Assembly (NCBI GenBank): GCA_949775045.1
Contig: OX459099.1
Span: 20,072,644-20,136,643 of the forward strand
From: Metridium senile
Lineage: Eukaryota > Cnidaria > Anthozoa > Actiniaria > Metridiidae
Reading direction: 5' to 3'
Length of the DNA stretch: 64,000 nt
Position 1 is the first letter of the stretch; every line of letters begins with the position of its first letter. Below are positions 15,108 to 58,164 of the stretch, in pieces. Below the pieces are notes generated by a model that did no database searches, was not told the origin of the DNA, and saw nothing but the letters and a program-made list of their open reading frames with translations. Both the position numbers and the translations under genes were made by a program.

Positions 15108-15150
15108 CGGGTTTCCTTTGGAATAATAACGAAAGAGAAAGACTGGAGAA
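15108..15150 (+). promoter_or_regulatory. Conserved 5' block of array gene A
   Basis: GGGTTTCCTTTGGAATAATA then CGAAAGAGAAAGACTGGAGA, ending 18 nt before the ATG. The same block precedes all seven gene copies (see the entries for B-G). No TATA box is evident in this copy. Confidence 0.6.
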
Positions 15151-15168
15151 GAAACGCGAAGAAACAAG

Positions 15169-16583
15169 ATGGCGGTCCAGGATGATTTTGAATGCCTACT
15201 TTTTAAGCTATCTTCGTGCCAACTTTCCCATTCCGACCCAATTTCAGAAAAGAATAAGATTGAGTCGATATCACGACTGAGAGATTTGAATGATTATAAT
15301 CCCGATTCTGGTTTATGTGCTGTCCCTGGCCTGTTTGATCCTAATGGATTCCATGGAATTCACGAGGAATTCCTTAATGAATATTCTAAAAAAGCCAAAG
15401 AAACATTCAGTACCATTATGCTAATAAGATCTGGTGATAATAGCCGAGACAAACGTATGCCTAACAAACATCAACTTAAAGTCCTGAAATCCATTGATCC
15501 AGCATTGTGCAAAATACTACGAGATGGAACCGTGAGGGACTTTTATAAGATACTATATCCAGACTCAGAAGAAGATCTACAAGGCACAGTCTTTTGCTTA
15601 GACGGTACAGAAAAAGATCATACAATCTTTGAAGATCTCACCGAACGGGCAAACCTACTGGCTAAAGAGATAAAGGAGCGCAAAGTCCCAAACCAGAAAA
15701 CCAAATGCTATCTGATGGATGGTTTTGGCAGGATGTTGCTTTGTCTCATTAAGGCATTGATAGAGGAGGGACTTGATCCTCATAATGATGTGGAGTTTAC
15801 AATCTGTGAGATAGATGATGTAGTCCATGAATATCATCAGTACGTTTTCCCTTCAAGTGTTGTAAAAATAAAACAAAATGTCCTAAAGGATTATGGAGAA
15901 TATATTGAAAACAACAGCGTTGTCTACTTGAATTTTTGCAGTGTGCCATCATCACAAGATCCAGAAAGCCAGAATTGGACATTGCATCCTAGGTGTGTCA
16001 AAGAAAATGTGTTAAGGTTTGTTTGGGAACTTACACAGCCTGGGAAAAACTGCTCAGTAATGGTATCATTGGTTATTAGAGACACCATAGCTGAAAGAAA
16101 GGAAAAGCTTTTCCCACCAAAAGGTGGTGGTAAAGGTAAAAAGTCATCCGTGGTAAAGAGTTGTTCAATTCTAAGGATGATGACATACTTCTAAGACCTC
16201 ACAATATTATTCCATGGATTGACCCTAACAAAAGGAAACCAAGCCCAAACGGCATAAATGGCAACAATGTTCAGGTATTTGCTTCAGTGATGATTCATCC
16301 TAAAGGTGAAGAACAAACAAAAGACTTAACAAAATGGTTTAATTTAAAACACATTGCAATTGATTTTATTGAAAACTTTGACATGGTAGAGATAATAACA
16401 CAATCAGATAATGGTTTACATGGACTTGTAGTAGGACAGACTTTAAACTCAGCAAAAGTTGTTTTATTTGAGGGCGATGATCAACTACGCAAAACAAAGT
16501 ATTTGACATCATGTCGGATATTACCTGAAAATAGGGAGACTAACAGAATGCGGAGGGAGATCTTACGGAAGCTTGGTTACTAG
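15169..16583 (+). pseudogene. Array gene A: methyltransferase-like + KOW-like protein, frameshifted
   Basis: First of seven tandem intronless copies; family not recognised. The ATG at 15169 opens a frame of 341 codons containing the N-terminal helical region and the Rossmann-like segment ([42 protein letters not shown]). After 16143 a 28-nt block present in every other copy is missing between two AAG repeats, so the frame is lost and ends at 16194. The KOW-like remainder (DGDD.. to LRKLGY) is open in another frame, 16161-16583. As it stands only a truncated protein lacking the C-terminal unit could be made. Most similar to C in its long N-terminus and to F in its last 200 nt. A LINE 3' fragment starts about 10 nt after the stop. 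Confidence 0.82.
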
Positions 16584-17016
16584 GAAGAGTTCAGAATATA
16601 GCGGCTCGAATGGTAGCAGGTGCACGCAGAACTGACCACATAACACCAATTCTTAAGAAACTACATTGGCTCCCTATAGAGGCTAGAATCAATTTCAAAA
16701 TCCTATTAACAACGTATAAGACCTTAAATGAACAATCAGCAGACTACCTTACAACAACAATAATATTCAAGAATACCATCATCACGTACTCTAAGATCAT
16801 CATCTCACTTCTTGCTGCGGGTACAGACAGTGAAAACTAAAACTTATGGTGGTCGTGCTTTTTCTAGCTCAGCAGCACAACTGTGGAACTCGCTACCAGA
16901 AAACAACAAAAAGGCAGAAACAACAGCTACTTTTAAATCGAGACTGAAGACATTTAAAAACTATTTTACATGATTTAACATTACAATCTTTACATTTACT
17001 CTATTAGTAATATATA

Positions 17017-17281
17017 CAGCCGATCTCGAAAAGGTTGTCCACCTGAAAAGACAAATATACTAAAAGAAATATCACGTGACTCATCATTTATTCAATTTCT
17101 TCGTGTGTATAAAGTAGGTGCGTTAGAAAGCAATAAGGCGGTGAATTCAAACAAGCAGTATCTTCCCTGGCTAGAAGTACCTGACTTTCTACACTCCCGG
17201 AAAGTGAATATAAGTGAGTCACGTGATATTTCTTTTAGTATATATGTCTTTTCAGGTGGACAACCTTTTCGAGATTGGCTG
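17017..17281. mobile_element. TA-flanked foldback MITE (CAGCC..ATCTCGAAAAGG)
   Basis: Inverted ends CAGCCGATCTCGAAAAGGTT and AACCTTTTCGAGATTGGCTG continue for about 65 bp (through AGAAATATCACGTGAC). Flanks are TATATA-rich, so TA is the minimal duplication. Homologue at 51536-51792. Confidence 0.8.
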
Positions 17282-17573
17282 TATATATACTATTTATTTA
17301 TTTTATTTTTATTTTATTAGCTTTTTATATATATATAAACCATATTTACATAGTAATTCTGCATTTTTCTATATAAACATATAACTATTCATAACAATTT
17401 ATTTTAGCTTATATATATTTTATATTTTTATATTATTATATATATTTAGAAAATATTTGAGATACTACGCACGATGTGATTGGCTGAGAGGTGTGTTTGC
17501 ATAAGAGTATGCAAACACAGTTGTGACGTCATGACATTTGTGTTTTGTAATTTGTGTCAAAATATTTTATTAA

Positions 17574-17726
17574 AGCAATAGAAAACTTTTGGAAGGTTTG
17601 TAGAATTCTCAATGGCTATGCAAACACTCCACTTCGTCTCGGGTTTGCATAACCATCTCAAATTCTCCCAACCTCCCCTCATATATATATCAGGCTATGC
17701 AAATACAGAAAAAGTTTTCTATTGCT
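17574..17726. mobile_element. Short-TIR element AGCAATAGAAAACTTT
   Basis: AGCAATAGAAAACTTT at the left and AAAGTTTTCTATTGCT at the right, with TTAA-like flanks (attaa / ttaaa). About 150 bp. The right end alone persists in the spacer copies at 26430 and 61775. Weak inner pairing. Confidence 0.55.
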
Positions 17727-17774
17727 TAAATATTTTCCTTTTTTTAATATTTTAAATATGTAATTTCCCAACTA

Positions 17775-17915
17775 GAGTACATACACTAAAAGTGTGCAAT
17801 ACTTTGCACTATTTACCACTAAATAGTGTTGATTAAACAATAGAGAATAATAGAATTAGCATAATTAAGCAGTATTTAGTGGTATTTATGTTGCACACTT
17901 TTAATGTTTGTACTC
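17775..17915. mobile_element. 141-bp MITE with TA duplication (GAGTAC ends)
   Basis: GAGTACATACACTAAAAGTG and CACTTTTAATGTTTGTACTC ends, TA on both sides. Empty sites with a single TA exist in the homologous LINE tails at 26486 and 61838 (cccaacTAttgtttc), which proves insertion. Second filled copy: 52248-52388. Confidence 0.92.
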
Positions 17916-17985
17916 TATTGTTTCATTTTCTTAATATATATACAAATTGTAAGCGTATTGAGACTAGAAATGCGCCATAAAAACG

Positions 17986-17987
<2 letters not shown>

Positions 17988-18054
<67 letters not shown>
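17988..18054. repeat. (ATT)n microsatellite at LINE tail
   Basis: Uninterrupted ATT triplets. Equivalent tracts at 26561-26637, 52466-52517 and 61915-61989 differ in length, so the locus is unstable. Confidence 0.95.
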
Positions 18055-18058
<4 letters not shown>

Positions 18059-18399
18059 CTAATCTAAAACACAGTAAATAAATATCAATTAAAATCAACC
18101 ATATTAAACTTATAGAAAAATTAAGAAATAGATATAAATAGATATAAGTAATTAATAAATATACATAAATAAAATAAATAAATAAATGTAAATAAATAAT
18201 TAAATGAATGAATAAATGGCCACTATAGCTATAAGGCTGAATTTGTCCTGATTTCAATAAGTTCTGCAAATACAGTTTCTTGATCATGCTTGTAATATAA
18301 AATGAAAGAATATAACATTGCAACTAGGTCTATTTTACCAACTATATAACTATATACTATGGCGGACCATTTTATTTTTTCAAATCTTTATTATATACA

Positions 18400-18561
18400 C
18401 CTGATTGCAATAACATTGTCATATAAAAAAAGAAAATTACAAAATAGCAATTAATTAAAAGACAAAAGCAGATTTACTCAAGCTGAACTTCTTCTTTTGT
18501 CTTTTAATTAATTCCTATCTTGTAATTTTCTTTTTTATATGACAATGTTATTGCTATTAGG
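18400..18561. mobile_element. Foldback MITE (CCTGATTGCAATAACATTGT)
   Basis: Nearly perfect hairpin of about 160 bp with inner arms AATTAATTAAAAGACAAAAG / CTTTTGTCTTTTAATTAATT. Copies at 26974-27134, 52965-53116 and 62329-62489; left-half fragments at 40065-40110 and 45626-45672. Confidence 0.85.
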
Positions 18562-19760: not shown

Positions 19761-19772
<12 letters not shown>

Positions 19773-19790
19773 ACCACCACCCCCCACCCC

Positions 19791-21866: not shown

Positions 21867-21982
21867 GAAAAAAATGGGTGTCGCTGTGTTGCCTGCCGTT
21901 GCCATGGTGGGCGCGGAGTGGGGTAAGTTTGCACTGGCAGGCTATCAGTTACAAGATTGCCGACAAGAAAAAAGATGTGGAT

Positions 21983-23437
21983 ATGGAAAGCCTACTAAAT
22001 AAGCTATATTTATGCCAACTTTGCCATCCCGACCCAATAGCAGAAAAGAACAAGATTGAGTTGATATCACGACTGAGAGATTTGAATGATTTTAATCCCG
22101 ATTCTGGTTTATGTGCTGTCCGTGGTCTTTTTGATCCTAATGGATTCCATGGATTTCACGAGGGTCACGAGGAAGTTCTTAGTGAAAATTCTGTAAAAGC
22201 CAAAGAAGCATTCAGAAAGATTATGCTAATGAGACCTGGTGATAAAGAACGAGACAAACGTATGCCTAGCAAAGATCAACTTGAAGTCCTGAAAGCCATT
22301 GATCCAGCATTGTGCAAAACACTACGAGATGGGACCGTGAGGGACTTCTATGAGATACTATATCCTAAACCAGAAGAAGATCTACAAGACACAGTCTTTT
22401 GCTTAGTCGGTACCAAAGTAGATGATACAATCTTCGAAGATCTCACCGAACGGGCAAAGCTACTGGCTAAAGAGATAAAGGAGCGCAAAATCCCAAACCA
22501 GAAAATCAAATGCTATCTGATGGATGGTTTTGGCAGGGTGTTGCTTTGTCTCATTAAGGCATTGATAGAGGAGGGAGTTGATCCTGATAATGATGTGGAG
22601 TTTACAATCTGTGAGATAGATGATGTAGTCCATGAATATCATCAGTACGTTTTCCCTTCAAGTGTGGTAAACAAAAAACAAAATGTCCTACAGGGTTATG
22701 GAGAATATATCGAAAACAACAGCGTTGTCTACTTGAATTTTTGCAGTGTGCCATCATTACAAGATAAAGTCAGCAAGAATTGGACATCGCATCCTAGGTG
22801 TGTCAAAGAAAATGTGTTAAGGTTTGTTTGGGAACTTACACAGCCTGGGAGAAACTGCTCAGTAATGGTATCATTGGTCATTAGAGACTCCATAGCTGAA
22901 GGAAAGGAAAAGATTTTCCCACGAATACCTAGGCCTACCAATAAAAATAAAGGTAAAAAGTATGTTACTTGTCTAGGATTCCTGGAAGTCATTCGTAATA
23001 AAGAGTTGTTCAATTCTAAGGACGGTGACATACTTCTAAGACCTGACACAACTATTAAATGGAGAAACCCTAACAAAAGGAAACCAAGCCCAAACGGCAT
23101 AAATGGCAATGATGTTCAGGTATTTGCTTCAGTGATGATTCATCCAAAAGGTGAAGAACAAAAAGGAAAATTAATAGAATGGTTTAAGGACAATAACATT
23201 GCATATGATTCACCTAATGATCCAAATCCTGGTGACATGGTAGAGATAACATCAAAAGAAGATAAAGGTTTCCATGGGCTTGTAATAGAACGGACTCCAG
23301 AGTTTGCAAAGGTTGTTTACTATGAAGGCAATGATCAAAGACCGCAAACAAAGAAATTAACATCATGTCAGAAATTACCTGAAAATATAGACACTGACAG
23401 AATGCGGCGGGAGATCAAACAGAAGCTCACTTTTTAA
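21983..23437 (+). CDS. Array gene B: methyltransferase-like + KOW-like protein, 484 aa
   Basis: Open, intronless. In gene C the start is ATGGCCGAAAAG; the same place here (21956) reads ATTGCCGACAAG, so I use the next in-frame ATG (GATATGGAAAGC). Layout of the 484 residues: Cys-containing N-terminus (CQLCHPDPIAEKNKIE), helical part, Rossmann-like segment with [19 protein letters not shown], acidic turn TICEIDDVV, strand [10 protein letters not shown] and strand [11 protein letters not shown], then GDILLRP...HPKGEEQ and a KOW-like stretch (GDMVEITSKEDKGFHGLVI). Class I methyltransferase and KOW assignments are pattern inferences; no enzyme can be named. Possible substrates (RNA, protein) unknown. 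A LINE 3' fragment begins about 60 nt downstream. Confidence 0.8.
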   Translation: MESLLNKLYLCQLCHPDPIAEKNKIELISRLRDLNDFNPDSGLCAVRGLFDPNGFHGFHEGHEEVLSENSVKAKEAFRKIMLMRPGDKERDKRMPSKDQLEVLKAIDPALCKTLRDGTVRDFYEILYPKPEEDLQDTVFCLVGTKVDDTIFEDLTERAKLLAKEIKERKIPNQKIKCYLMDGFGRVLLCLIKALIEEGVDPDNDVEFTICEIDDVVHEYHQYVFPSSVVNKKQNVLQGYGEYIENNSVVYLNFCSVPSLQDKVSKNWTSHPRCVKENVLRFVWELTQPGRNCSVMVSLVIRDSIAEGKEKIFPRIPRPTNKNKGKKYVTCLGFLEVIRNKELFNSKDGDILLRPDTTIKWRNPNKRKPSPNGINGNDVQVFASVMIHPKGEEQKGKLIEWFKDNNIAYDSPNDPNPGDMVEITSKEDKGFHGLVIERTPEFAKVVYYEGNDQRPQTKKLTSCQKLPENIDTDRMRREIKQKLTF

Positions 23438-23454
23438 ATATTATTTTTATTTGT

Positions 23455-24130
23455 GTTATTCAAAACAAAATTTTATTGATTTATTATCATCCACTCAGGC
23501 TTTTCCCCTTATAACTGACACCAAAGTAAGGCATACATTGTATCTTGCCCTTGTAAAATCTCAACTGTGTTACACCACTGAGGTGTGGTCTCCAGCCAGT
23601 GTTATTATTATTATCTTTATTATTTGTTCCCTTACGGGCTTTTCGACACTTACATATGTAATTACATTCAATTATTCATAGTGTACATTAATTATAATAA
23701 AAAGCATGTGACTTTTAGTTTCAGTTCAGGTTGTAAAGAATTCCAAATTTTTACACCTCTGTATGTAAATGATCTTAAGCTGAAAAATCATCATCGAAAG
23801 AGTTCAGTGATGAGATCAAGCGCTTAGAACAGACTTGAATAAGCGCTATATAAGCTATATACATTATTATTTGATCAAAACTCTGTGAAACGCTATACAA
23901 GGACAGGCTTCAAGCCCTTAATCTTCTTCCTTTGGTGTATGATAGAGAAATTAAAGACCTTGTATTTTTTTATAAAGCTGTAAATGGCTACACTGTCTCA
24001 TAACCAGAATTCTACTTTATCTCTAATACCCCAAATTGTAAAACTTAAATGCATTTTAGGCCTCTTTTTTTAATAGGGTTGTCAAACTCTGAAACTCAGC
24101 TTAAAGGGTTTCTTCAAGATTCATATTTTT
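23455..24130 (+). mobile_element. LINE ORF2 fragment downstream of gene B, split by an insertion
   Basis: Reads QAFPLITDTKVRHTLYLALV and KSQLCYTTEVWSPASV at 23490-23605, then, after about 265 bases ending in 'agcgctatataagctatatacattattatt', resumes with LQALNLLPLVYDREIKDLVF FYKAVNGYT-like sequence at 23900-24000. This is the CR1/L2-type post-RT region. Homologue: 58165-58840. Confidence 0.7.
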
Positions 24131-30420: not shown

Positions 30421-30504
30421 AAAAATGGGTGTTGCTGTGTTGCCTGCCGTTGCCATGGTGTGCGCTGAGGGGGGTAAGCTTGCACTGGCAGGCTATCTTA
30501 CAAG

Positions 30505-32976
30505 ATGGCCGAAAAGAAAGAAGATGTGGATACGGAAAGCCTACTAAAAAAGCTATCTTCGTGCCAACTTTGCCATCCCGACCCAATAGCAGAAAAGAAC
30601 AAGATTGAGTTGATATCACGACTGAGAGATTTGAATGATTTTAATCCCGATTCTGGTTTATGTACTGTCCGTGGTCTTTTTGATCCTAATGGATTCCATG
30701 GATTTCACGAGGGTCACGAGGAAGTTCTTAGTGAAAATTCTAAAAAAGCCAAAGAAACATTCAGTACCATTATGCTAATAAGACCTGGTGATAATAGCCG
30801 AGACAAACGTATGCCTAGCAAAGATCAACTTAAAGTCCTGAAAGCCATTGATCCAGCATTGTGCAAAACACTTCGAGATGGAACCGTGAGGGACTTCTAT
30901 GAGATACTATATCCTAAACCAGAAGAAGATCTACAAGACACAGTCTTTTGCTTAGTCGGTACCAAAGTAGATGATACAATCTTCGAAGATCTCACCGAAC
31001 GGGCAAAGCTACTGGCTAAAGAGATAAAGGAGCGCAAAATCCCAAACCAGAAAATCAAATGCTATCTGATGGATGGTTTTGGCAGGGTGTTGCTTTGTCT
31101 CATTAAGGCATTGATAGAGGAGGGAGTTGATCCTGATGATGATGTGGAGTTTACAATCTGTGAGATAGATGATGTAGTCCATGAATATCATCAGTACGTT
31201 TTCCCTTCAAGTGTTGTAAACAAAAAACAAAATGTCCTACAGGATTATGGAGAATATATCGAAAACAACAGCGTTGTCTACTTGAATTTTTGCAGTGTGC
31301 CATCATCACAAGTCAACAAGAATTGGAAATCGCATCCTAGGTGTGTGAAAGAAAATGTGTTAAGGTTTGTTTGGGAACTTACACAGCCTGGGAGAAACTG
31401 CTCAGTAATGGTATCATTGGTCATTAAAGACGAATCTCAAGGAAGGGAAAAGCTTTTCCCACGAATACCTGATCCTACCATTCAAAATCAAGGTAAAAAG
31501 TATGTTACTTGTCTAGGATTCCTGAAAGTCATCCGTGATAAAGAGTTGTTTAATTCTGAGGACGGTGACATACTTCTAAGACCTGACAAAACTATTAAAT
31601 GGAGAAACCCTAACACAAAAAGAATCCCAAGCTCAGTAGGCTTGGATGGCAACTTTGTCCATGTGTTTGCTTCAGTGATGATTCATCCCAAAGGTGAAGA
31701 ACAAACAGAAGACTTAATAGAATGGTTTGATGATAATAACATTGCATATGATTCACCTAATGATCCAGAACCTGGTGAGAGGGTGGATATAATAGCAGGC
31801 AATCATAAGGATACTCATGGAGTACTTGTACACCGTCGAACTCCATGTTTTGCATGGTTTAAACTCACTGGCAGCAATGATGAACATCAGGTAAAGTTGA
31901 CATCATGCCGCAAAATCATCAATTCTATGGATGGTGACATACTTCTAAGACCTGGCAATATTATTCCATGGGATGACTATTACACAGAAAGGAAACCAAG
32001 CCTAGAAGGCATACATGGCAACAATGTTCAGACATTTGCTTCAGTGATGACTCATCCTAAAGGTGAAGAACAAACAGAAGACTTGATAGAATGGTCTGAT
32101 GAAAATAACATTGCATATGATTCACCTAATGATCCAGAACCTGGTGAGAGGGTGGATATAATAGCAGGCAATCATAAGGGTACTCATGGAGTTGTACAAC
32201 GTCGAACTCCATGTTATGCATGGGTTAAACTCGCTGGTAGCAATGATGAACATCGGGTAAAGTTGACATCATGCCGCAAAATCATCAATTCTGTGGATGG
32301 TGACATACTTCTAAGACCTGGCAATATTATTCCATGGGATGGCTATTACACAGAAAGGAAACCAAGCCTAGAAGGCATACATGGCAACAATGTTCAGACA
32401 TTTGCTTCAGTGATGACTCATCCTAAAGGTGAGAATAACATTGCATATGATTCACCTAATGATCCAGAACCTGGTGAGAGGGTGGATATAATAGCAGGCA
32501 ATCATAAGGGTACTCATGGAGTTGTACAACGTCGAACTCCATGTTATGCATGGGTTAAACTCGCTGGTAGCAATGATGAACATCAGGTAAAGTTGACATC
32601 ATGCCGCAAAATCATCAATTCTGTGGATGGTGACATACTTCTAAGACCTGGCAATATTATTCCATGGGATGGCTATTACACAGAAAGGAAACCAAGCCTA
32701 GAAGGCATACATGGCAACAATGTTCAGACATTTGCTTCAGTGATGACTCATCCTAAAGGTGAGAATAACATTGCATATGATTCACTTGATGATCCAGAAC
32801 CTGGTGATAGGGTGGATATAATAGCAGGCAATCATAAGGGTACTTATGGAGTTGTACAACGTCGAACTCCATGTTATGCATGGGTTAAACTCGCTGGCAG
32901 CAATGATGAATATCGGGTAAAATTGACATCATGCCGCAAACCCCCCAGGAGGAAACTCTTCTTTGAAAACATGTAA
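30505..32976 (+). CDS. Array gene C: methyltransferase-like protein with four KOW-like units, 823 aa
   Basis: Largest and cleanest member; single exon. ATGGCCGAA at 30505 has A/G-rich context (acaagATGG). Residues 1-180: helical, Cys20/Cys23 pair (CQLC). 185-200: KCYLMDGFGRVLLCLI, a glycine loop after a strand, like motif I of class I methyltransferases. 214-224: [10 protein letters not shown], acid at the end of strand 2. 257-266: [10 protein letters not shown], motif IV position. 299-308: [10 protein letters not shown]. From 350 on, four units start at residues 350, 473, 595 and 705, each GDILLRP...ASVM.HPKG...GERVDIIAGNHKGTHGVV... AWVKL, a KOW/SH3-like pattern. It ends KPPRRKLFFENM, unlike the other copies. 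KOW domains bind RNA or ribonucleoprotein in known families; that role here is inference. Confidence 0.85.
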   Translation: MAEKKEDVDTESLLKKLSSCQLCHPDPIAEKNKIELISRLRDLNDFNPDSGLCTVRGLFDPNGFHGFHEGHEEVLSENSKKAKETFSTIMLIRPGDNSRDKRMPSKDQLKVLKAIDPALCKTLRDGTVRDFYEILYPKPEEDLQDTVFCLVGTKVDDTIFEDLTERAKLLAKEIKERKIPNQKIKCYLMDGFGRVLLCLIKALIEEGVDPDDDVEFTICEIDDVVHEYHQYVFPSSVVNKKQNVLQDYGEYIENNSVVYLNFCSVPSSQVNKNWKSHPRCVKENVLRFVWELTQPGRNCSVMVSLVIKDESQGREKLFPRIPDPTIQNQGKKYVTCLGFLKVIRDKELFNSEDGDILLRPDKTIKWRNPNTKRIPSSVGLDGNFVHVFASVMIHPKGEEQTEDLIEWFDDNNIAYDSPNDPEPGERVDIIAGNHKDTHGVLVHRRTPCFAWFKLTGSNDEHQVKLTSCRKIINSMDGDILLRPGNIIPWDDYYTERKPSLEGIHGNNVQTFASVMTHPKGEEQTEDLIEWSDENNIAYDSPNDPEPGERVDIIAGNHKGTHGVVQRRTPCYAWVKLAGSNDEHRVKLTSCRKIINSVDGDILLRPGNIIPWDGYYTERKPSLEGIHGNNVQTFASVMTHPKGENNIAYDSPNDPEPGERVDIIAGNHKGTHGVVQRRTPCYAWVKLAGSNDEHQVKLTSCRKIINSVDGDILLRPGNIIPWDGYYTERKPSLEGIHGNNVQTFASVMTHPKGENNIAYDSLDDPEPGDRVDIIAGNHKGTYGVVQRRTPCYAWVKLAGSNDEYRVKLTSCRKPPRRKLFFENM
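31552..32940 (+). repeat. Four tandem KOW-unit repeats inside gene C
   Basis: Unit starts 31552, 31921, 32287, 32617: lengths 369, 366, 330 and about 324 nt. Units 3 and 4 lack an in-frame 36-nt segment (EEQTEDLIEWSD). Units 2-4 are nearly identical in DNA, unit 1 is clearly diverged, so the expansion is recent. Other family members have one unit. Confidence 0.92.
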
Positions 32977-37511: not shown

Positions 37512-37562
37512 AAAAATACTAGGAAATCCATGTAGGTGTTGGGTTGCTAGCTACCAGACAAA

Positions 37563-39761
37563 ATGGAAATAGAAAATGAGCTATTTTCGCGCCGACTTGC
37601 AGAGAATGATAAGGATGCCTTGATATCACGACTAAGTGATTTGAATGGTCGATCTTATCCAAATTCTTCTTTATCTGCTCTCCGTAGAAATGCCAAAGAA
37701 GCATTCAGAAAGATTATGCTAATGAGACCTGGTGATAATGTACGAGTCAAATCCAAAGGTGCCCATCCCCCCCCCGGGCAAACCCCCGGGCATTTGACTT
37801 TTTGAAAAAAAATTGGTCAAATTCCCCACCATCTGGGCAAACTGAACAGTCAAATGCCCCACTATTGAAACAACAGAATGGTCAAATGCCCGCCCCTCGA
37901 GCTCGAGTCAGTGATAAACTCAAATTTTACTTTAAGTAGAAAAGAAAATACTTAAACTTCCTTCTACTACATGACGTCTCATGAACATGGTAGACAAAAC
38001 TTGTACAATCAAATATGAAGGGAAATTTCAAAAAACGTTGAAGAAGAGAATGGTTATTGGCAATTTTTGATTGGTGATTGCACGACCGAAAGATGGATCT
38101 CGATATAATTCACAAATCTATCTTAAAAACTGAAAGAACTTGGATTTTCTTTGCACTTTTCGACTCTAAAACACAAAGACAAGCATTTATACTTCGTCAA
38201 TTTAATTTTACTTGTGAAAGAACAGTACCCAGAGCTCCTTTGCAATCGCTGTTCGTCAATCGCCAATTCTTTCTGACGTTTTTTGAGATAGGTGTATAAC
38301 AAGGAAAAACTATCTATCAATTCTTTGCTTTTCGTTTCCGTTCCCGTGTGACTTTTGCCTGATCATGGGCTACCTGTGGTTAGGACTCCAATGCTTTCTG
38401 GGTATTTTTAAAGATGGCCGACACTCGTCAAATGCCCGCCCGTTCAAGTAGCTAATCGGCGTCAAATTCCCCACTATACGGAACCCAAGTCTTGTCAAAT
38501 GCCCGGGGTTTGCCCGGGGGGGGGATGGGCACCTTTGGATTTGACTCGTACATAAAGAACGAGACAAACGTATGCCTAGCAAAGATCAACTTGAAGTCCT
38601 GAAAGCCATTGATCCAGCATTGTGCAAAACACTTCGAGGTGGAACCGTGAGGGACTTCTATAAGATACTATATCCTAAACCAGAAAAAAATCTACAAGGC
38701 ACAGTCTTTTGCATAGACGGTACCAAAGATGATCGTACAATCCTGAAAGATCTCAAAAAACGGGCAAAGATACTGGCTAAAGAGATAAAGGCCATAAAGC
38801 AGAAGTGCAGACCCGGCAGAGGCAAGAAAATCAAATGCTATCTGATGGATGGGCATGGCAGGATGTTGCTTTGTCTCATTAAGGCATTGATAGAGGAGGG
38901 AGTTGATCCTGATAATGATGTGGAGTTTACAATCTGTGAGATAGATGATGTAGTCCATGAATATCATCAGAACGTTTTCCCTTCAAGTGTTGTAAACAAA
39001 AAACAAAATGTCCTACAGGATTATGGAGAATATATCGAAAACAACAGCGTTGTCTACTTGAATTTTTGCAGTGTGCCATCATCACAAGACAACAAGATTT
39101 GGACATCGCATCCTAGGTGTGTCAAAGAAAATGTGTTAAGGTTTGTGTCTGAACTAACACAGCCTGGGAGAAACTGCTCAGTAATGGTATCATTGGTCAT
39201 TAGAGACACCATAGCTGAAGGAAAGGAAAAGCTTTTCCCAATTGATGGTGAAGGTAAAAAGTATGTTACTTGTCTAGGATTCCTGGAAGTCATTCGTAAT
39301 AAAGAGTTGTTCAATTCTAAGGACGGTGACATACTTCTAAGACCTGACAAAACTATTAAATGGAGAAACCCTAACAAAAGGAAACCAAAGCCAAAAGGCA
39401 TAAAGGGCTACAGCGATCAGGTATTTGCTTCAGTGATGATTCATCCCAAAGGTAAAGAACAAACAAAAGGCTTAATAAAATGGTTTGATTACAATAACAT
39501 TGCATATGATTCACCTAATGATATAATTCCTGATGACATGGTAAAGATAACATCAGAAAAAGATAAAGGTTTCCATGGGCTTGTTATATAATAGGACGGA
39601 ATCTAAACTCAGCAAAGGTTGTTTACTAGTACTATGAAGGCAATGATCAACTACCGAAAACAAAGTATTTGACATCATGTCAGAAATTACCTGAAAATAA
39701 GAAGACTACCATAATGCGGCAATTGATCAGAGGGAGGATTGGAACCATAACTTATGTTTAA
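37563..39761 (+). pseudogene. Array gene D: disrupted by a Harbinger-like element and indels
   Basis: Short N-terminus type (MEIENELFSRRLAENDKDAL..) shared with E and F, lacking the SGLCAVRGLFDPNGFHGFHE segment of A/B/C/G. After RPGDN the frame is broken by an 814-bp element (37739-38552). Precise removal with one TAA restores the D/E-type reading KERDKRMPSKDQ. The Rossmann-like part is intact, with [14 protein letters not shown] (His where A/B/C have Phe). Close to the end 'gttatataatagg' replaces 'gttatagg' (+5 nt) giving a stop at 39591, and a further +6 nt is present near 39627. Not expected to give a full protein. Sequence otherwise very close to E. Confidence 0.85.
37739..38552. mobile_element. 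Harbinger-like non-autonomous element in gene D, TAA duplication
   Basis: 814 bp; ends TGTACGAGTCAAATCCAAAG and its inverted copy, arms about 57 bp including CCCGGG-rich stretches. TAA at 37736-37738 and 38553-38555; gene E has the empty site ggtgaTAAagaac. Inner copies of 'gtcaaatgcccg' occur several times. The longest open frames show no transposase motif. Confidence 0.92.
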
Positions 39762-40115: not shown

Positions 40116-40321
40116 TTTGTTTTCTTTTTGAAAATATTTTTGTATCAAGCATCAAGGAGACTTTTTTTGAATAATGCTCTATTTATTGAACATTTTGAAA
40201 AAATATATATTACAGTGCGACTCACTTACAAAAGCATTTGATGAATTTTTGACATTATTTTGACATTTTTTCATCTTGATCAGACCAATCAGGTACACGT
40301 TTATATTGAGATAGAAATCAG

Positions 40322-41100
40322 TAGAAAATACCTAGTATGAATGTATAGTTTGTAAAGTAGGAAAATATATTTAAAAAAAAAAAAAAAATTGAAAAAAATA
40401 TTTCCAGTAGAAAATACCTAGTATGAATGTATACTTTGTAAAGTAGGAAAATATATTTAAAAAAAAAAAATTGTAAAAAATATTTCCGGTAGAAAATACC
40501 TAGTATGAATGTATACTTTGTAAAGTAGGAAAATATATTTAAAAAAAAAAATATTGAAAAAAATATTTCCAGTAGAAAATACCTAGTATGAATGTATAGT
40601 TTATAAAGTAAGAAATTATATTTTTAAAAAAAAATTGTAAAAAATATTTCCAGTAGAAAATACCTAGTATGAATGTATAGTTTATAAAGTAAGAAAATAT
40701 ATTTTTAAAAAAAAATTGTAAGAAATATTTCCAGTAGAAAATACCTAGTATGAATGTATAGTTTATAAAGTAAGAAAATATATTTTTTAAAAAAAATTGT
40801 AAAAAATATTTCCAGTAGAAAATACCTAGTATGAATGTATAGTTTATAAAGTAAGAAAATATATTTTTTTAAAAAAATTGTAAGAAATATTTCCAGTAGA
40901 AAATACCTAGTATGAATGTATAGTTTATAAAGTAAGAAAATATTTTTTTTTTTAAAAATTGTAAGAAATATTTCCAGTAGAAAATACCTAGTATGAATGT
41001 ATAGTTTATAAAGTAAGAAAATATATTTTTAAAAAAAAATTGTAAAAAATATTTCCAGTAGAAAATACCTAGTATGAATGTATAGTTTGTAAAGTAGGAA
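40322..41100. repeat. Minisatellite, about 82-bp unit, ten copies (spacer Q2)
   Basis: Unit core AGTAGAAAATACCTAGTATG, AATGTATAGTTTATAAAGTA then an A/T-rich linker. Spacer Q1 has one unit (34550-34615), Q3 about nine, so this grew after the spacer duplicated. Confidence 0.95.
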
Positions 41101-41811
41101 ATAATTATTTTTTGTATTAATAAAAAAAAGACATTGTCTATTTTGTTTCATTGTATTCTATTTGTATACCGGTACACCCTTTCCAAGAAACTTTGTCACC
41201 TGTGAAGTGAAAAGCCTACAAGCTAGTATATAGCGCAGGGGATTATGAGTTACTTAATGTAAATTTTATTAGGACACAGGAATTTCATGGCCACATTGCT
41301 AACACTTGTCAATATGTTTTTGAAAAATCTCATTTTGACTTATCAAACAACAAGAAAGGCGTTCCAAATGCACATTTAGTTTCTGAACTGATCCATGATC
41401 CTTTGCGCCACTAGCTTGTGTGCTTTTCTCGGATGACAAACTTTCTCGGAAAGGGTGTATTCAGGTTGCTGTATATATGTATATTCCTTAATGTTTTTTT
41501 ATATCATTTTCATTTTATTATTTAATTTTTATTTGATTTTTTTAGTTGTATTTGATTTTTAATATTTAATTTTCATTTGATTTTTGTTGTTGTATTTCAT
41601 TCTTATTGTTTTTTATGTTTTGTATTTTTTTACTTGATTTTATAAGTTAATTAATTGAATGTTAACTCTTTTATTTCATTCAGTTTTATTTTATTTTTGT
41701 ACATGAGGTGAATAATAAATGTACTTAAAAAATTAATGAATAATTAATGACTATTTTGTCCAAATTGACAAAAGAAATCGTAACCATGACGAGTGGTCTA
41801 AATCTTGATAA

Positions 41812-43699: not shown

Positions 43700-43767
43700 A
43701 TGAAGGAAAAATACTAGGAAATCCAACCCGAAGGAGAGGTGCTGGGTTGCTACTCTTAAAAGTAAAT

Positions 43768-45168
43768 ATGAAAAGGCTACTACAGCTACATTCGTTGTTG
43801 CCACTTTCTCCTCGCGACTTAATTGCAGAGAATGATAAGGATGCCTTAAAATCACGACTAAGTGATTTGAATGGTCGATCTTATCCAAATTCTTCTTTAT
43901 CTGCTCTCCGTAGAAATGCCAAAGAAGCATTCAGAAAGATTATGCTAATGAGACCTGGTGATAAAGAACGAGACAAACGTATGCCTAGCAAAGATCAACT
44001 TGAAGTCCTGAAAGCCACTGATCCAGCATTGTGCAAAACACTACGAGATGGGACCGTGAGGGACTTCTATAAGATACTATATCCTAAACCAGAAAAAGAT
44101 CTACAAGGCACAGTCTTTTGCATAGACGGTACCAAAGATGATCGTACAATCCTGAAAGATCTCAAAAAACGGGCAAAGATACTGGCTAAAGAGATAAAGG
44201 CCATAAAGCAGAAGTGCAGACCCGGCAGAGTTAATAGAGGCAAGAAAATCAAATGCTATCTGATGGATGGGCATGGCAGGATGTTGCTTTGTCTCATTAA
44301 GGCATTGATAGAGGAGGGAGTTGATCCTGATAATGATGTGGAGTTTACAATCTGTGAGATAGATGATGTAGTCCATGAATATCATCAGAACGTTTTCCCT
44401 TCAAGTGTTGTAAACAAAAAACAAAATGTCCTACAGGATTATGGAGAATATATCGAAAACAACAGCGTTGTCTACTTGAATTTTTGCAGTGTGCCATCAT
44501 CACAAGTCAACACGAATTGGAAAATGAATCCTAGGTGTGTCAAACAAAATGTGTTAAGGTCTGTGTCTAAACTAACACAGCCTGGGAGAAACTGCTCAGT
44601 AATGGTATCATTGGTCATTAGAGACACCATAGCTGAAGGAAAGGAAAAGCTTTTCCCAATTGATGGTAAAGGTAAAAAGTATGTTACTTGTCTAGGATTC
44701 CTGGAAGTCATTCGTAATAAAGAGTTGTTCAATTCTAAGGACGGTGACATACTTCTAAGACCTGACAAAACTATTAAATGGAGAAACCCTAACAAAAGGA
44801 AACCAAAGCCAAAAGGCATAAAGGGCTACAGCGATCAGGTATTTGCTTCAGTGATGATTCATCCCAAAGGTAAAGAACAAACAGAAGACTTAACAAAATG
44901 GTTTGATAACAATAACATTGCATATGATTCACCTAATGATATAATTCCTGATGACATGGTAAAGATAACATCAGAAAAAGATAAAGGTTACCATGGGCTT
45001 GTTATAGGACGGAATCTAAACTCAGCAAAGGTTGTTTACTATGGAGGCAATGATCAACTACCGAAAACAAAGTATTTGACATCATGTCAGAAATTACCTG
45101 AAAATAAGAAGACTACCATAATGCGGCAAAGGCTCAGAAGGAGGATTGGACCCATAACTTATGTTTAA
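43768..45168 (+). CDS. Array gene E: methyltransferase-like + KOW-like protein, 466 aa
   Basis: Open, intronless. Gene F starts ATGGAAGTAAATATG; here the first ATGGA is deleted, so the start is the next in-frame ATG (AATATGAAAAGG). Short N-terminus type. Rossmann-like part: [44 protein letters not shown]; a lysine/arginine-rich insert (KAIKQKCRPGRVNRGKK) precedes the first strand and is longer than in B/C. One KOW-like unit ([20 protein letters not shown]) and a basic C-terminus (RQRLRRRIGPITYV). It is the only undisrupted member of the D/E/F subtype and D's nearest relative. Function unknown; the domain reading is inference. Confidence 0.8.
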   Translation: MKRLLQLHSLLPLSPRDLIAENDKDALKSRLSDLNGRSYPNSSLSALRRNAKEAFRKIMLMRPGDKERDKRMPSKDQLEVLKATDPALCKTLRDGTVRDFYKILYPKPEKDLQGTVFCIDGTKDDRTILKDLKKRAKILAKEIKAIKQKCRPGRVNRGKKIKCYLMDGHGRMLLCLIKALIEEGVDPDNDVEFTICEIDDVVHEYHQNVFPSSVVNKKQNVLQDYGEYIENNSVVYLNFCSVPSSQVNTNWKMNPRCVKQNVLRSVSKLTQPGRNCSVMVSLVIRDTIAEGKEKLFPIDGKGKKYVTCLGFLEVIRNKELFNSKDGDILLRPDKTIKWRNPNKRKPKPKGIKGYSDQVFASVMIHPKGKEQTEDLTKWFDNNNIAYDSPNDIIPDDMVKITSEKDKGYHGLVIGRNLNSAKVVYYGGNDQLPKTKYLTSCQKLPENKKTTIMRQRLRRRIGPITYV

Positions 45169-45678: not shown

Positions 45679-45884
45679 TTTGTTTTCTTTTTGAAAATAT
45701 TTTTGTATCAAGCATCAAGGAGACTTTTTTTGAATAATACTCTATTTATTGAACATTTTGAAAAAATATATATTACAGTGCGACTCACTTACAAAAGCAT
45801 TTGATGAATTTTTGACATTATTTTGACATTTTTTCATCTTGATCAGACCAATCAGGTACACGTTTATATTGAGATAGAAATCAG

Positions 45885-46590
45885 TAGAAAATACCTAGTA
45901 TGAATGTATAGTTTGTAAAGTAGGAAAATATATTTAAAAAAAAAAAAAAAATTGAAAAAAATATTTCCAGTAGAAAATACCTAGTATGAATGTATACTTT
46001 GTAAAGTAGGAAAATATATTTAAAAAAAAAAAATTGTAAAAAATATTTCCAGTAGAAAATACCTAGTATGAATGTATACTTTGTAAAGTAGGAAAATATA
46101 TTTAAAAAAAAAAAAATATTGAAAAAAATATTTCCAGTAGAAAATACCTAGTATGAATGTATAGTTTATAAAGTAAGAAATTATATTTTTAAAAAAAAAT
46201 TGTAAAAAATATTTCCAGTAGAAAATACCTAGTATGAATGTATAGTTTATAAAGTAAGAAAATATATTTTTAAAAAAAAATTGTAAGAAATATTTCCAGT
46301 AGAAAATACCTAGTATGAATGTATAGTTTATAAAGTAAGAAAATATATTTTTAAAAAAAATTGTAAGAAATATTTCCAGTAGAAAATACCTAGTATGAAT
46401 GTATAGTTTATAAAGTAAGAAAATATATTTTTTTAAAAAAATTGTAAGAAATATTTCCAGTAGAAAATACCTAGTATGAATGTATAGTTTATAAAGTAAG
46501 AAAATATATTTTTAAAAAAAAATTGTAAAAAATATTTCCAGTAGAAAATACCTAGTATGAATGTATAGTTTGTAAAGTAGGAAATAATTA
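45885..46590. repeat. Minisatellite, about 82-bp unit, nine copies (spacer Q3)
   Basis: Same unit as 40322-41100, one copy fewer. Confidence 0.95.
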
Positions 46591-49288: not shown

Positions 49289-49526
49289 ATGAAGGAAAAA
49301 TACTAGGAAATCCAACCAACACAGCGGTCAAACGACTAGGCATGCGTGGCAAAATTTTCACAGCGCTAAATTTTGGAAAGTGTTTGAAGTCGATTTATAA
49401 GAAATTCCCTGAATATATCAGCTTGAAGTTTCTTGTACATAACCTTTGTTATATTTTAAAGCTACCATGAGTCTATACTTTTGTATTTTTGTTTTACTTG
49501 TTTTTTCGGGTTGCTACTCTTAAAAG

Positions 49527-51123
49527 ATGGAAGTAAATATGGAAAGGCTACTAGATGAGCTATATTCGTTGCCACTTTCTCCTCGCGACCGAACTGCAGA
49601 GAATGATAAGGATGCCTTGATATCACGACTAAGTGATTTGAATGGTCGATCTTATCCAAATTCTTCTTTATCTGCTCTCCGTAGAAATGCCAAAGAAGCA
49701 TTCAGAAAGATTATGCTAATGAGACCTGGTGATAATAGCCGAGACAGACGTATGCCTAAGCAAAGATCAACTTGAAGTCCTGAAAGCCATTGATCCAGCA
49801 TTGTGTAAAACACTTCGAGGTGGAACCGTGAGGGACTTCTATAAGATACTATATCCTGACTCAGACTTAGACTCAGACTCAGACTCAGACTCAGACTCAG
49901 ACTCAGACTCAGACTCAGACTCAGACTCAGACTCAGACTCAGACTCAGACTCAGACTCAGACTCAGACTCAGACTCAGACTCAGACTCAGACTCAGACTC
50001 AGACTCAGACTCAGACTCAGACTCAGACTCAGACTCAGACTCAGACTCAGACTCAGATCTACAAGGCACAGTCTTTTGCTTAAACGGTACAGAAACAGAT
50101 CGTACAATCCTGAAAGATCTCAAAAAACGGGCAAAGCTACTGGCTAAAGAGATAAAGTTGAAAAAAATCCCAGACGAAAAAATCAAATGCTATCTGATGG
50201 ATGGGCATGGCAGGATGTTGCTTTGTCTCATTAAGGCATTGATAAAGGAGGGAGTTGATCCTGATGATGATGTGGAGTTTACAATCTGTGAGATAGATGA
50301 TGTAGTCCATGAATATCATCATTATGTTTTCCCTTCAAGTGTTGTAAACAAAAAACAAAATGTCTTAAAGGATTATGGAAAATATATCGAAGAAGACAGC
50401 GTTGTCTACTTGAACTTTTGCAGTGTGCCATCATCACATGACAACACGAATTGGAAAATGAATCCCAGGTGTGTCAAAGAAAATGTGTTAAAGTCTGTGT
50501 CTAAACTAACCAAGCCTTCGAAAAACTGCTCAGTAATGGTATCATTGGTCATTAGAGGCACCATAGCTGAAGGAAAGGAAAAGCTTTTCCCAATTGATGG
50601 TAAAGGTAAAAAGTATGTTACTAGTCTAGGATTCCTGAAAGTCATCCGTGATAAAAAGTTGTTCAATTCTAAGGACGGTGACATACTTCTAAGACCTGAC
50701 TCTAGTATACCATGTGATGACCCTTACACAAAAAGGAAACCAAGCGCAAAAGGCATAAAGGGCTGCAGCGTTCAGGTATTTGCTTCAGTGATGATTCATC
50801 CCAAAGGTGAAGAACAAACAGAAGACTTAACAGAATGGTTTGATGATAAAAACATTGCATATGATTTTATTGAATACTTTGACATGGTAGAGATAATATC
50901 AAAAACTACTAAAGATAAAGGTTACCATGGACTTGTAGTAGGACAGACTTCACACACGGCAAAGGTTGTTTACTGTGAAGGCAAGGATCAAAGACCGCAA
51001 ACAAAGTATTTGACATCATGTCAGAAATTGCCTGAAACTATTGCGACTAGAAGAATGCGGAGGGAGATCAGATGGAAGATAGGTTACTGGGAAGGGTTCA
51101 GAATAATGCAGCTCAAATGGTAG
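49527..51123 (+). pseudogene. Array gene F: chimeric D/E-A copy, 1-nt frameshift, Asp-Ser expansion
   Basis: ATG at 49527 opens MEVNMERLLDELYSLPLSPR, D/E-type. At 49758 'cctaagcaaag' replaces 'cctagcaaag', a 1-nt insertion that ends the frame after 82 codons; the rest is open in the shifted frame to 51123. At 49858-50058 a (GACTCA)n run of about 33 units gives an Asp-Ser tract where A has PDSEEDLQ. Rossmann-like motifs intact ([33 protein letters not shown]). Up to about 50.85 kb it follows D/E; from [12 protein letters not shown] on it follows A, as does the LINE fragment downstream. Probably inactive unless the 1-nt insertion is an assembly error. Confidence 0.82.
49858..50058 (+). repeat. 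(GACTCA)n hexanucleotide repeat, about 33 units, in gene F
   Basis: Almost pure; one 'gactta' unit near the left end. In frame it encodes alternating Asp and Ser. Antisense frames read LSLS and SESE and are artefacts. Confidence 0.97.
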
Positions 51124-51535
51124 CAGGTGCATGCAGAACTGACCACATAACACCAATTCTTATGAAACTACATTGGCTCCCTATAGAGGCTAGAATAAAT
51201 TTCAAAATCCTATTAACAACGTATAAGACCTTAAATGAACAATCAGCAGACTTAACCTTACAACAACAATAATATTCAAGAATACCATCATCGCGTACTC
51301 TAAGATCATCATCTCACTCTCTGCTGCGGGTACCGACAGTGAAAACTAAAACTTATGGTGGTCGTGCTTTTTCTAGCTCAGCAGCACAGCTGTGGAACTC
51401 GCTACCAGAAAACATCAATAAGGCAGAAACAACAGCTACTTTTAAATCGAGACTGAAGACATTTAAAAACTATTTTACATGATTTAACATTACAATCTTT
51501 ACATTTACTCTATTAGTAATATATACAGCCAATCT

Positions 51536-52517: not shown

Positions 52518-52518
<1 letters not shown>

Positions 52519-54289: not shown

Positions 54290-54299
54290 AAAAACCACC

Positions 54300-54762: not shown

Positions 54763-54820
54763 CAGGCAACTCTTTTGGGTTTCCTTTGGAATAAAACGAA
54801 CGAGAAAGACTAGAGAAGAA
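54763..54820 (+). promoter_or_regulatory. Conserved 5' block of array gene G
   Basis: Identical to that of B over the core (GGCAACTCTTTTGGGTTTCC, TTTGGAATAAAACGAACGAG), with a TATATAATATATATA run upstream. Confidence 0.6.
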
Positions 54821-55354
54821 AAAAATGGGTGTCGCTGTGTTGCCTGCCGTTGCCATGGTGGGCGCGGAGTGGGGTAAGTTTGCACTGGCAGGCTATCAGT
54901 TACAAGATTGCCGACAAGAAAAAAGATGTGGATATGGAAAGCCTACTAAATAAGCTATATTTATGCCAACTTTGCCATCCCGACCCAATAGCAGAAAAGA
55001 ACAAGATTGAGTTGATATCACGACTGAGAGATTTGAATGATTTTAATCCCGATTCTGGTTTATGTGCTGTCCGTGGTCTTTTTGATCCTAATGGATTCCA
55101 TGGATTTCACGAGGGTCACGAGGAAGTTCTTAGTGAAAATTCTGTAAAAGCCAAAGAAGCATTCAGAAAGATTATGCTAATGAGACCTGGTGATAAAGAA
55201 CGAGACAAACGTATGCCTAGCAAAGATCAACTTGAAGTCCTGAAAGCCATTGATCCAGCATTGTGCAAAACACTACGAGATGGGACCGTGAGGGACTTCT
55301 ATGAGATACTATATCCTAAACCAGAAGAAGATCTACAAGACACAGTCTTTTGCT

Positions 55355-57102
55355 GGGTGTTACTAAAGAGAGTAACGGAGTAACAAGTAACGAGTAAACC
55401 GAGTAACAAGAAACCGAGTAACATGAAAATTTTCAGACATAGATTTTTTCAAAAATGAAAAATAATGTTAATAATAGGCTTACGAAATGAAAACGAAATG
55501 AGAATGTCATATTTTTTTACTCGATAAAGCGATTAAAACTCGTGTATTTTCATTAAAGATGCAATTGCAAGACGCCGACCGGCCGCGTAATGGTGCCGGT
55601 AATTACAGCTTTACAAAACAAACTGACTTGCCGGCCTACCCTAAAATTATAACATTTCAGAGTACAATTTTTAATAGTTGACGTGACGGTTTTTCCAAAT
55701 TTTGATAGAGTAAAATAAATGAAAATTCATCTTAATGGCTGGAAAGAGAACTTCACAATTAGTAAAATCGCTAAGTTTGAGAAGAAAATCGTATAAAATA
55801 GCAAAGATATAGCGCGGTAAAGTCAGCAGATTTTACAAAGATTTGTATGCCAGACGAGAAACCTTGCCAACTCATACTGTATGAGTTGGCAAGGTTTCTC
55901 GTCTGGCATACAAACGTCTGTAAACACTGCTGACTTTACCGCGCTATATCTTTGCTATTTTATACGATTTTCTTCTCAAACTTAGCGATTTTACTAATTG
56001 CGAAGTTCTCTTTCCAGCCATTAAGATGAATTTCCATTTATTTTACTCTATCAAAATTTGGAAAACCCGTCACGTCATCTATTAAGAATGCTCCTTTTGT
56101 AGTATCATTTCTATTTCTGCTGATATTTCCTTCGCTCGGATGTCAAAAGATTTACTAAGTTTCGTTTCAAGTGGTTCTAAACCTTTATAAAAACTCTTGC
56201 AACGCACTAAGTCAAACTTTTAAAACTCTTTTAAGGAACTAGTTTCGTATTTTATTAGAACTTATCAAACCTAGAGTTTGTCTAGGTTATTTGTCGATAA
56301 AAAAAATTTCCTCTGTGGTGGGGGTATGGATATTTTCTGGAACTACACATTTAGTGATATACTAAACAGCATGCAATGAGTGCAAAAAAACACTTGTAAC
56401 TGACGACGTCCAAGGTATCGAGCTGTTTATGTCCTGTGTTGTACATGTTCGCTTACATATAAAGTATTCAATATTTACAAAGTATTTTTAAATAAAACTT
56501 AAAACATATTATTTCAGAATTCAGACAATATGGCAATACGGCTAGAAGCTTCAGTCTCTTCGATCGAATCCGAGTCCTTCTAAAAGTTCTCCTAACGTCT
56601 TTACGTATAAGCATTCACAATGATCTCTTTGCATGGAAATATTTAATCATTGACATTATATCCTCATTCATTCCTATCGATTTTTAGGTTTCTTTGACTA
56701 TAATTTGTCTTTTAGACAAAACGCAACGTTGGTGAAAGTTTTCTTTGCAAGCATGTAAAATATTTTTTTTAGTTAACCGGTAATTAAAATGATTTTCACT
56801 CGAAATACTATATTTCGATAAAAAATATCAAATGGTTTGAGTCCTGACTCGAGTCCTGGCTCGGTATTTAGGTACCCTCTCGGCGTCTTGCAATTGCATC
56901 TTTAATAAAAATACTCGAGTTTTAATCGCTTGATCGAGTAAAAATATATGACATTCTCATTTCGTTTTCATTTCGTAAGCCTATTATTAATATTATTTCT
57001 CATTTTTGAAAAATCTATGTTTGAAAATTTTCATGTTACTCGGTTTCTCGTTACTCGGTTTACTAGTTACTCGTTACTCCGTTACTCTGTTTAGTAACAC
57101 CC
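55355..57102. mobile_element. Mutator-like (MULE) non-autonomous element in gene G, 10-bp target duplication
   Basis: Inverted repeats of about 222 bp begin GGGTGTTACTAAA and run to GCAAGACGCCGA (55355-55576; 56880-57102). GTCTTTTGCT is duplicated at 55345-55354 and 57103-57112, and occurs once in gene B (22395-22404). Long terminal repeats plus an 8-11 bp duplication are the Mutator signature. The outer 80 bases are built from 'gagtaac' motifs. No transposase frame. Confidence 0.9.
55671..56085. mobile_element. Nested foldback inside the MULE, arms about 205 bp
   Basis: TTAATAGTTGACGTGACGG at the left returns inverted to CTATTAA at 56085; near-perfect, meeting at CTCATACTGTATGAG. Arms contain CCAGACGAGAAACCTTGCCA. 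Confidence 0.9.
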
Positions 57103-58164
57103 GTCTTTTGCTTAGTCGGTACCAAAGTAGATGATACAATCTTCGAAGATCTCACCGAACGGGCAAAGCTACTGGCTAAAGAGATAAAGGCGCGCAAAGT
57201 CGCAAACCAGAAAACCAAATGCTATCTGATGGATGGTTTTGGTAGGGTGTTGCTTTGTATCATTAAGGCATTGATAGAGGAGGGAGTTGATCCTGATGAT
57301 GATGTGGAGTTTACAATCTGTGAGATAGATGATGTAGTCCATGAATATCATCAGTACGTTTTCCCTTCAAGTGTGGTAAACAAAAAACAAAATGTCCTAC
57401 AGGGTTATGGAGAATATATCGAAAACAACAGCGTTGTCTACTTGAATTTTTGCAGTGTGCCATCATTACAAGATAAAGTCAGCAAGAATTGGACATCGCA
57501 TCCTAGGTGTGTCAAAGAAAATGTGTTAAGGTTTGTTTGGGAACTTACACAGCCTGGGAGAAACTGCTCAGTAATGGTATCATTGGTCATTAGAGACTCC
57601 ATAGCTGAAGGAAAGGAAAAGATTTTCCCACGAATATCTAGGCCTACCAATAAAAATAAAGGTAAAAAGTATGTTACTTGTCTAGGATTCCTGGAAGTCA
57701 TTCGTAATAAAGAGTTGTTCAATTCTAAGGACGGTGACATACTTCTAAGACCTGACACAACTATTAAATGGAGAAACCCTAACAAAAGGAAACCAAGCCC
57801 AAACGGCATAAATGGCAATGATGTTCAGGTATTTGCTTCAGTGATGATTCATCCAAAAGGTGAAGAACAAAAAGGAAAATTAATAGAATGGTTTAAGGAC
57901 AATAACATTGCATATGATTCACCTAATGATCCAAATCCTGGTGACATGGTAGAGATAACATCAAAAGAAGATAAAGGTTTCCATGGGCTTGTAATAGAAC
58001 GGACTCCAGAGTTTGCAAAGGTTGTTTACTATGAAGGCAATGATCAAAGACCGCAAACAAAGAAATTAACATCATGTCAGAAATTACCTGAAAATATAGA
58101 CACTGACAGAATGCGGCGGGAGATCAAACAGAAGCTCACTTTTTAAATATTATTTTTATTTGTG

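Follow-up and report, generated by a model that had tools for sequence, protein, structure and literature searches.

Organisation of the array

Within a window of 64,000 nucleotides of the Metridium senile genome (the whole stretch analysed, C5:20072644-20136643, C5 being contig OX459099.1 in a genome of 389 Mb and 169 contigs), seven copies of one single-exon gene, designated A to G, were found head-to-tail on the + strand by self-blastn and by tblastn with copy B and homologue P0001. An eighth copy, H, forms a 494-residue open frame just beyond the window end (C5:20138509-20139993). The array holds at least eight copies, with starts spaced 5 to 11 kb apart, four of which are open (B, C, E and H) and four broken (A, D, F and G). 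The preliminary description of the window, made from its letters alone, had counted seven copies, three open and four broken; all seven were recovered, with B, C and E open and A, D, F and G each damaged differently, the total being raised to at least eight by H just outside. The copies within the window are:

15169-16580, + strand: copy A, broken; a deletion and a change of frame around 16117-16143 (tblastn hits in frame 1, then in frame 3)
21983-23437, + strand: copy B, open; 484 amino acids counted from the first in-frame ATG
30505-32976, + strand: copy C, open; 823 amino acids, four tail modules
37562-39743, + strand: copy D, broken; inverted-repeat insertion of ~0.8 kb (about 37744-38547) and frame change at ~39588
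43747-45168, + strand: copy E, open; 473 amino acids counted from TTG, with an ATG at 43768
49525-51123, + strand: copy F, broken; frame change near 49760
54907-58146, + strand: copy G, broken; split by an inverted-repeat insertion of ~1.75 kb (about 55355-57103)

The open reading frame of copy B is listed from further upstream (GTG 21878). The insertion in copy G is flanked by a duplicated 9-mer (GTCTTTTGC), and because B and G are ~99% alike across several kb (98-99% identical in protein), G must have been split after a recent duplication. Divergence between gene copies ranges from 0.8% (B-G) up to 15.8% (F-H) over ~850-1390 aligned bases, a likeness far beyond chance. The single-exon structure proposed previously is borne out, as most of the length of the open copies can be aligned to single-frame homologues of 480-507 amino acids, these being open reading frame predictions with which an intron in an untranslated leader would be compatible. 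It was also observed that copy F carries an in-frame (GACTCA)33 microsatellite (49858-50057), translated as Asp-Ser repeats, (DS)n.

A search of the genome with copy B (E <= 0.001) placed 18 of 19 match rows within C5 20.087-20.140 Mb, the 19th being a 33-residue fragment at C5:17742252, and found nothing matching to the right of H. An artefact of assembly, raised as a possibility in the preliminary description, was rejected: each broken copy has its own lesion, and the copies are distinct from each other within one contig of 21.6 Mb.

Upstream of the genes lies a conserved 5' element, annotated for copies A and B as:

15112-15168, + strand: conserved 5' element of copy A, reaching to the ATG and containing the 15-mer TTTCCTTTGGAATAA
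21829-21982, + strand: 5' element and leader of copy B, in which the start ATG of A and C reads ATT (21956)

The 15-mer TTTCCTTTGGAATAA occurs eight times in 84 kb (the window and the next 20 kb, both strands), one occurrence upstream of each of the eight copies and none elsewhere. As it stands once before every copy, whole gene units appear to have been duplicated as DNA. The array is probably a product of DNA-level tandem duplication, and the birth and death of copies that had been suggested is supported, open and variously broken members standing in tandem. In copies B and G the start codon of A and C is ATT, and the next in-frame ATG lies nine codons downstream.

It was also noted that in B, C, G and H a leader of ~80 bases with its own ATG (MGVAVLPAVA...) lies ahead of the usual start (about 21874-21955 in B, 30425-30504 in C and L009:1866-1943 in H). 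Its frame agrees with that of the gene in copy H and differs from it in B and C, and the N-terminus of H is for this reason possibly longer.

Protein core

The Rossmann part of the encoded protein looks like a class I S-adenosylmethionine (SAM) methyltransferase, a resemblance resting on fold and motif position. The predicted model has a seven-strand alpha/beta fold with the strand order canonical for that class. In copy B, the motif places assigned from alignment and model are:

22523-22537, + strand: motif I place, DGFGR, residues 181-185, after strand 1
22613-22621, + strand: motif II place, EID, residues 211-213, end of strand 2
22730-22747, + strand: motif IV place, YLNFCS, residues 250-255, end of strand 4

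An alignment of 23 rows was made from copies B, C and E and 20 of the 24 homologues described below. YLNFCS is invariant in all 23 rows and also in the seven of seven array copies tested; one Cys, one Lys, one Val and one Leu beyond it are likewise invariant. DGxGR, E-x-D and a His are present in at least 90% of the rows. In the model DGxGR forms the glycine-rich loop after strand 1, shorter than usual, and E-x-D the acidic end of strand 2. Among the 50 fold-match rows listed, 24 are KsgA/dimethyladenosine transferase, Erm, MnmM, CmoM or TFB1M, representing few different proteins; the absence of a family from the fold lists was not counted against it. C5-cytosine methyltransferases (DNMT, NSUN/RsmB) carry their catalytic Cys within motif IV or VI or close by; here the invariant Cys lies two places past the strand-4 Asn and there is no Pro-Cys motif in the 23 rows. 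Weak matches to the Ddi2 helical domain, below cut-off, were obtained for the N-terminal part of A, B, C, E, H and P0001.

The preliminary description had proposed a Rossmann-like region paired with a KOW-like C-terminus and belonging to no named family. Both parts are supported, the former being refined by the fold matches to a class I SAM methyltransferase-like region. No named family was found in the profile libraries scanned (Pfam, NCBIfam, PHROGs and PADLOC), and in none of them was a pairing of methyltransferase with KOW found; for the four proteins scanned against NCBIfam, PHROGs and PADLOC, any matches were weak.

KOW-type tail

KOW-type domains are the sole Pfam matches above cut-off in the array proteins and homologues scanned, the scan of the array having covered copies A, B, C, E and H. 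Copy C matches KOW5_SPT5 at 36.5 bits (cut-off 27) and SH3_KIN17_C at 31.9 (cut-off 27.9), and KOW is above its cut-off of 22.3 in three of the 16 homologues scanned (P0006, 24.9; P0007, 22.7; P0014, 23.3). In P0007, the region equivalent to the tail of copy B folds like Spt5 KOW by structure comparison. The tail features are:

23231-23374, + strand: KOW-type domain of copy B, residues 417-464, placed by alignment, no Pfam KOW match
31561-32973, + strand: tail of copy C, with four modules repeated in tandem and in frame (123, 122, 110 and 116 amino acids)

Modules 2 and 3 of copy C differ at 3 of 330 bases, and for this reason the last amplification of modules is considered recent.

Homologues

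Three protein searches, the first two of which scored 7998 candidates, gave 24 homologues. The family is therefore not confined to this genome. The single named homologue is P0013, the uncharacterized protein LOC110254175 from the sea anemone Exaiptasia diaphana, which is 50% identical to P0005 across 88% of the core and has DGHGR and YLNFCS, but differs in having E-T-S at the place of E-x-D and no Pfam KOW match. YLNFCS is kept in members down to 26% identity with P0005. P0019-P0022, among the most distant homologues, have the core and no KOW match.

In a tree of 23 rows, the window copies tested together with H (A-F and H) group with P0001, while P0004/P0009/P0011 and P0002/P0003/P0007 form separate groups. 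P0004, P0009 and P0012 are on contigs of equal size (110,892 bases), which suggests clustered copies there too. Expansions that took place repeatedly and separately in other species would fit this pattern.

A literature search found no paper describing the family, though one may exist. The text found in PMC13289920 concerns Spt5 KOW. A further hit, PMC8195603, was set aside, as in the text matched there "kow" abbreviates Saccoglossus kowalevskii and is unrelated to KOW.

Selection on the copies

The ratio of nonsynonymous to synonymous divergence (dN/dS, omega) over the whole gene was 0.84-1.43 in 24 pairs separated by 60 or more changes and 0.76-2.67 in seven pairs with fewer, one pair being unchanged. 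Alignment columns were then divided by conservation among 20 of the 24 outside homologues into 60 conserved, 129 intermediate and 250 variable columns. For seven copies omega was 0.3 in conserved columns, 0.7 in intermediate and 1.6 in variable ones, with twice the log-likelihood difference (2dlnL) from omega 1 being 11.35, 1.33 and 6.56, respectively; for the four open copies the corresponding 2dlnL values were 9.01, 1.22 and 3.20. A column bootstrap of the counting ratio gave 0.12-0.90 for conserved and 1.07-1.72 for variable columns in seven copies, and 0.11-0.76 and 0.96-1.64 in the four open ones. An earlier column split by eight homologues gave the same picture. Conserved core columns are under purifying selection, and the results are suggestive of diversifying selection at variable columns. 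Few amino acids have changed near motifs I, II and IV. Change is high in the tail and in the loops that follow strands 4 and 5, but equally in the N-terminal part and in the helix preceding strand 1.

The chance of a frame staying open under neutrality was 0.064 for B, 0.072 for C and 0.024 for E, using substitution numbers set from pair counts. Between C and H, seven of seven coding indels are multiples of three, against none of eight upstream; between B and C the counts are three of three and three of seven. In the compared part of broken copy F, which was not picked as open, all five indels relative to B are in frame. Pairs B-E, C-E and E-H were left out of this count, some of their gaps being split or terminal (2, 4, 20 and 8 bases).

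Divergence of genes and flanks

Of 28 pairs, 16 could be compared with an upstream flank of at least 200 aligned bases and three with a downstream one; the pairs are not independent. Genes are more diverged than their flanks in several pairs: the gene is the more diverged in eight of the 19 comparisons (p < 0.01) and the less diverged in one (E-G), with neither outcome in ten. The strongest cases are A-F (gene 15.4% vs downstream 1.9%), E-F (gene 9.5% vs upstream 1.8%) and C-H (gene 13.4% vs upstream 2.5%). Divergence is also uneven along the gene, C-H ranging from 6-11% in the first part to 17-31% toward the tail, and B-C falling to 0-1.3% in the core. Copy F has an E-like upstream flank, an A-like downstream flank and a gene resembling neither. 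Sequence exchange between copies probably accounts for such patterns.

Neighbouring genes and spacers

The left neighbour of the array is represented by gene pieces:

1-10344, - strand: pieces of a gene with an ArfGAP domain above the Pfam cut-off and PH matches beneath it; outside the array

Amid these pieces an open frame at 3200-3943 on the - strand gives a zf-RVT match of 36.7 bits (cut-off 27.5) and marks a retroelement piece. Open frames on the + strand beside copies A, F and B (16544-16970, 51273-51479 and 23391-23678, respectively) resemble in their pattern pieces of reverse transcriptase of the long interspersed nuclear element (LINE) type; Pfam gave no match for the three LINE-like pieces scanned (16544-16837, 16764-16970 and 23391-23678). 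Satellite-like arrays of 81-bp and 48-bp units occupy the spacers after D, E and G (40319-41101, 45882-46584 and 60322-60868). Downstream of the array, a lysine-rich open frame (L010:2979-4049) is a possible right neighbour gene. No RNA genes or tRNAs were found in the window at the thresholds used.

Proposed function and alternatives

It is tentatively proposed, with chances that we would put slightly short of even, that each gene encodes a class I SAM methyltransferase with a KOW-type tail for targeting and that the copies differ in target. The DGxGR loop and the E-x-D end of strand 2 would bind SAM, YLNFCS together with the loops that follow strands 4 and 5 would line the pocket for the target, and the C-terminal tail (one module; four in copy C) would bring the enzyme to its target. 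Tandem duplication, exchange between copies and mobile-element insertion would make and break copies, and with the frame and active-site signature retained in open copies while loops and tail vary, the copies would come to differ in target. Both the methyltransferase activity and the change of target are what we infer from these features. The substrate is most likely RNA or an RNA-protein complex, a preference owed to the KOW tail and to the many RNA enzymes among the fold matches.

A number of results weigh against this proposal. The core has no sequence match to a methyltransferase profile in the four libraries, nor to a solved structure; Foldseek TM-scores are low (<=0.35 of the query, among the matches listed), and among the matches listed are a few non-methyltransferases (fatty acid synthase, spermidine synthase, SCL3). 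Model confidence is low for loops 4 and 5, there are no more than two glycines in motif I, and P0013 has E-T-S in place of E-x-D. N6-adenine methyltransferases of the KsgA, Erm, METTL16 and M.TaqI type have [DNS]-x-P-[FYW] as motif IV, a pattern present in none of the 23 rows, YLNFCS having no Pro and no aromatic at the fourth place in all 23. A Pfam KOW match is absent in copies A, B, E and H and in 13 of the 16 homologues scanned. Over the gene as a whole, omega shows no difference from 1 (2dlnL 3.68 with seven copies, 0.91 with the four open ones), the excess at variable columns falls short of significance in the open copies, and synonymous divergence (dS) within the genes is elevated as well (C-H 0.210). 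For these last three reasons positive selection was dropped as a plain statement. Because dS is also raised, exchange of segments between diverged copies, kept or favoured, is a better account than point mutation alone, and exchange explains gene divergence as much as selection does. The in-frame-indel and no-stop arguments lose some of their force, since an open frame was the criterion by which B, C, E and H had been chosen.

A somewhat unlikely alternative is a methyltransferase that acts on proteins or small molecules instead of RNA and whose KOW tail touches protein or ribosome. The fold lists mix RNA and small-molecule enzymes at tied Z (AprA MT2 and NodS among the latter), KOW domains bind proteins too, and the motif IV place is unlike the adenine-methylating motif as generally given; on the other hand, 24 of the 50 listed rows belong to the enzymes named above (KsgA, Erm and others), if to few different proteins, and KOW domains are mostly nucleic-acid or ribosome associated. 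Loss of catalysis, with the methyltransferase fold and KOW tail serving for binding only, is decidedly less likely. Dead paralogues of enzymes are common, and the short motif I, the unusual motif IV and the missing Asp of E-x-D in P0013 would fit, but YLNFCS is held down to 26% identity with P0005 and the conserved columns within the array are under purifying selection.

Between these two in probability, and unlikely, is simple drift: the gene would be an ordinary one, its additional copies evolving under relaxed constraint with no diversification. The whole-gene omega of 0.84-1.43, the four broken copies of eight, the weak variable-column excess in open copies and the ten of 19 flank comparisons without difference all agree with drift. 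Against it stand the conserved-column omega of 0.3, coding indels that are in frame where upstream ones are not, the no-stop chances for B, C and E (picked as open) and the eight of 19 comparisons in which divergence of the gene exceeds that of its flank. The coding part of a mobile element or integrated virus, the former also raised in the preliminary description, is highly improbable. Single-exon frames, the LINE-like fragments and inverted-repeat elements in the spacers and ten weak matches at E <= 0.001 in a viral structure library, several of them methyltransferases, could be cited for it. However, Pfam found no transposase, integrase, reverse transcriptase or other transposon domain in copies A, B, C and E, the search with copy B (E <= 0.001) found no dispersed copies but a single locus in the 389-Mb genome, every copy is preceded by a conserved 5' element of its own, and no relative was found in viral contigs, bacterial or archaeal genomes, phages or plasmids at the search sensitivity used. 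A transposon or viral origin was rejected, the viral-library methyltransferase matches, which come from many viruses, showing fold and not descent.

Should the methyltransferase proposal be correct, the array would represent a eukaryotic family of methyltransferases not described before, marked by the signature YLNFCS and by a pairing of methyltransferase with KOW. Several genes outpace the surrounding DNA but keep their active-site signature, as would be expected of genes racing against changing targets, and the diversification pattern would fit a role in conflict or defence, which is speculation. As a long shot, the array may be an innate-immunity or self/non-self arsenal of an early-branching animal, in which each copy would methylate a different RNA or RNA-protein target, selected through loops and KOW modules. 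The germ-line repertoire would then be renewed by gene conversion, by unequal crossing-over and by amplification of modules from one to four, with separate expansions in other species. The genes are a candidate for a variable RNA or protein marking system, and four open paralogues within one species make target choice directly testable.

Comparison with known systems

The KsgA/Dim1/TFB1M and Erm rRNA adenine dimethyltransferases have an NLPY-type motif IV and their own C-terminal domain in place of a KOW-type tail; the array proteins have NFCS at the motif IV place and no sequence match to these enzymes. The tRNA methyltransferase MnmM likewise has no sequence match to the array proteins and no KOW, the matched MnmM chain being of 175 residues. 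With Spt5, GPKOW, KIN17 and NusG, the family shares the KOW domain, which Pfam recognises in copy C and in some of the homologues and which the fold shows as well. It differs from them in that no NGN domain (E <= 10 in copies A, B, C and E) or G-patch is listed by Pfam, and in that the remainder of the protein has a methyltransferase fold.

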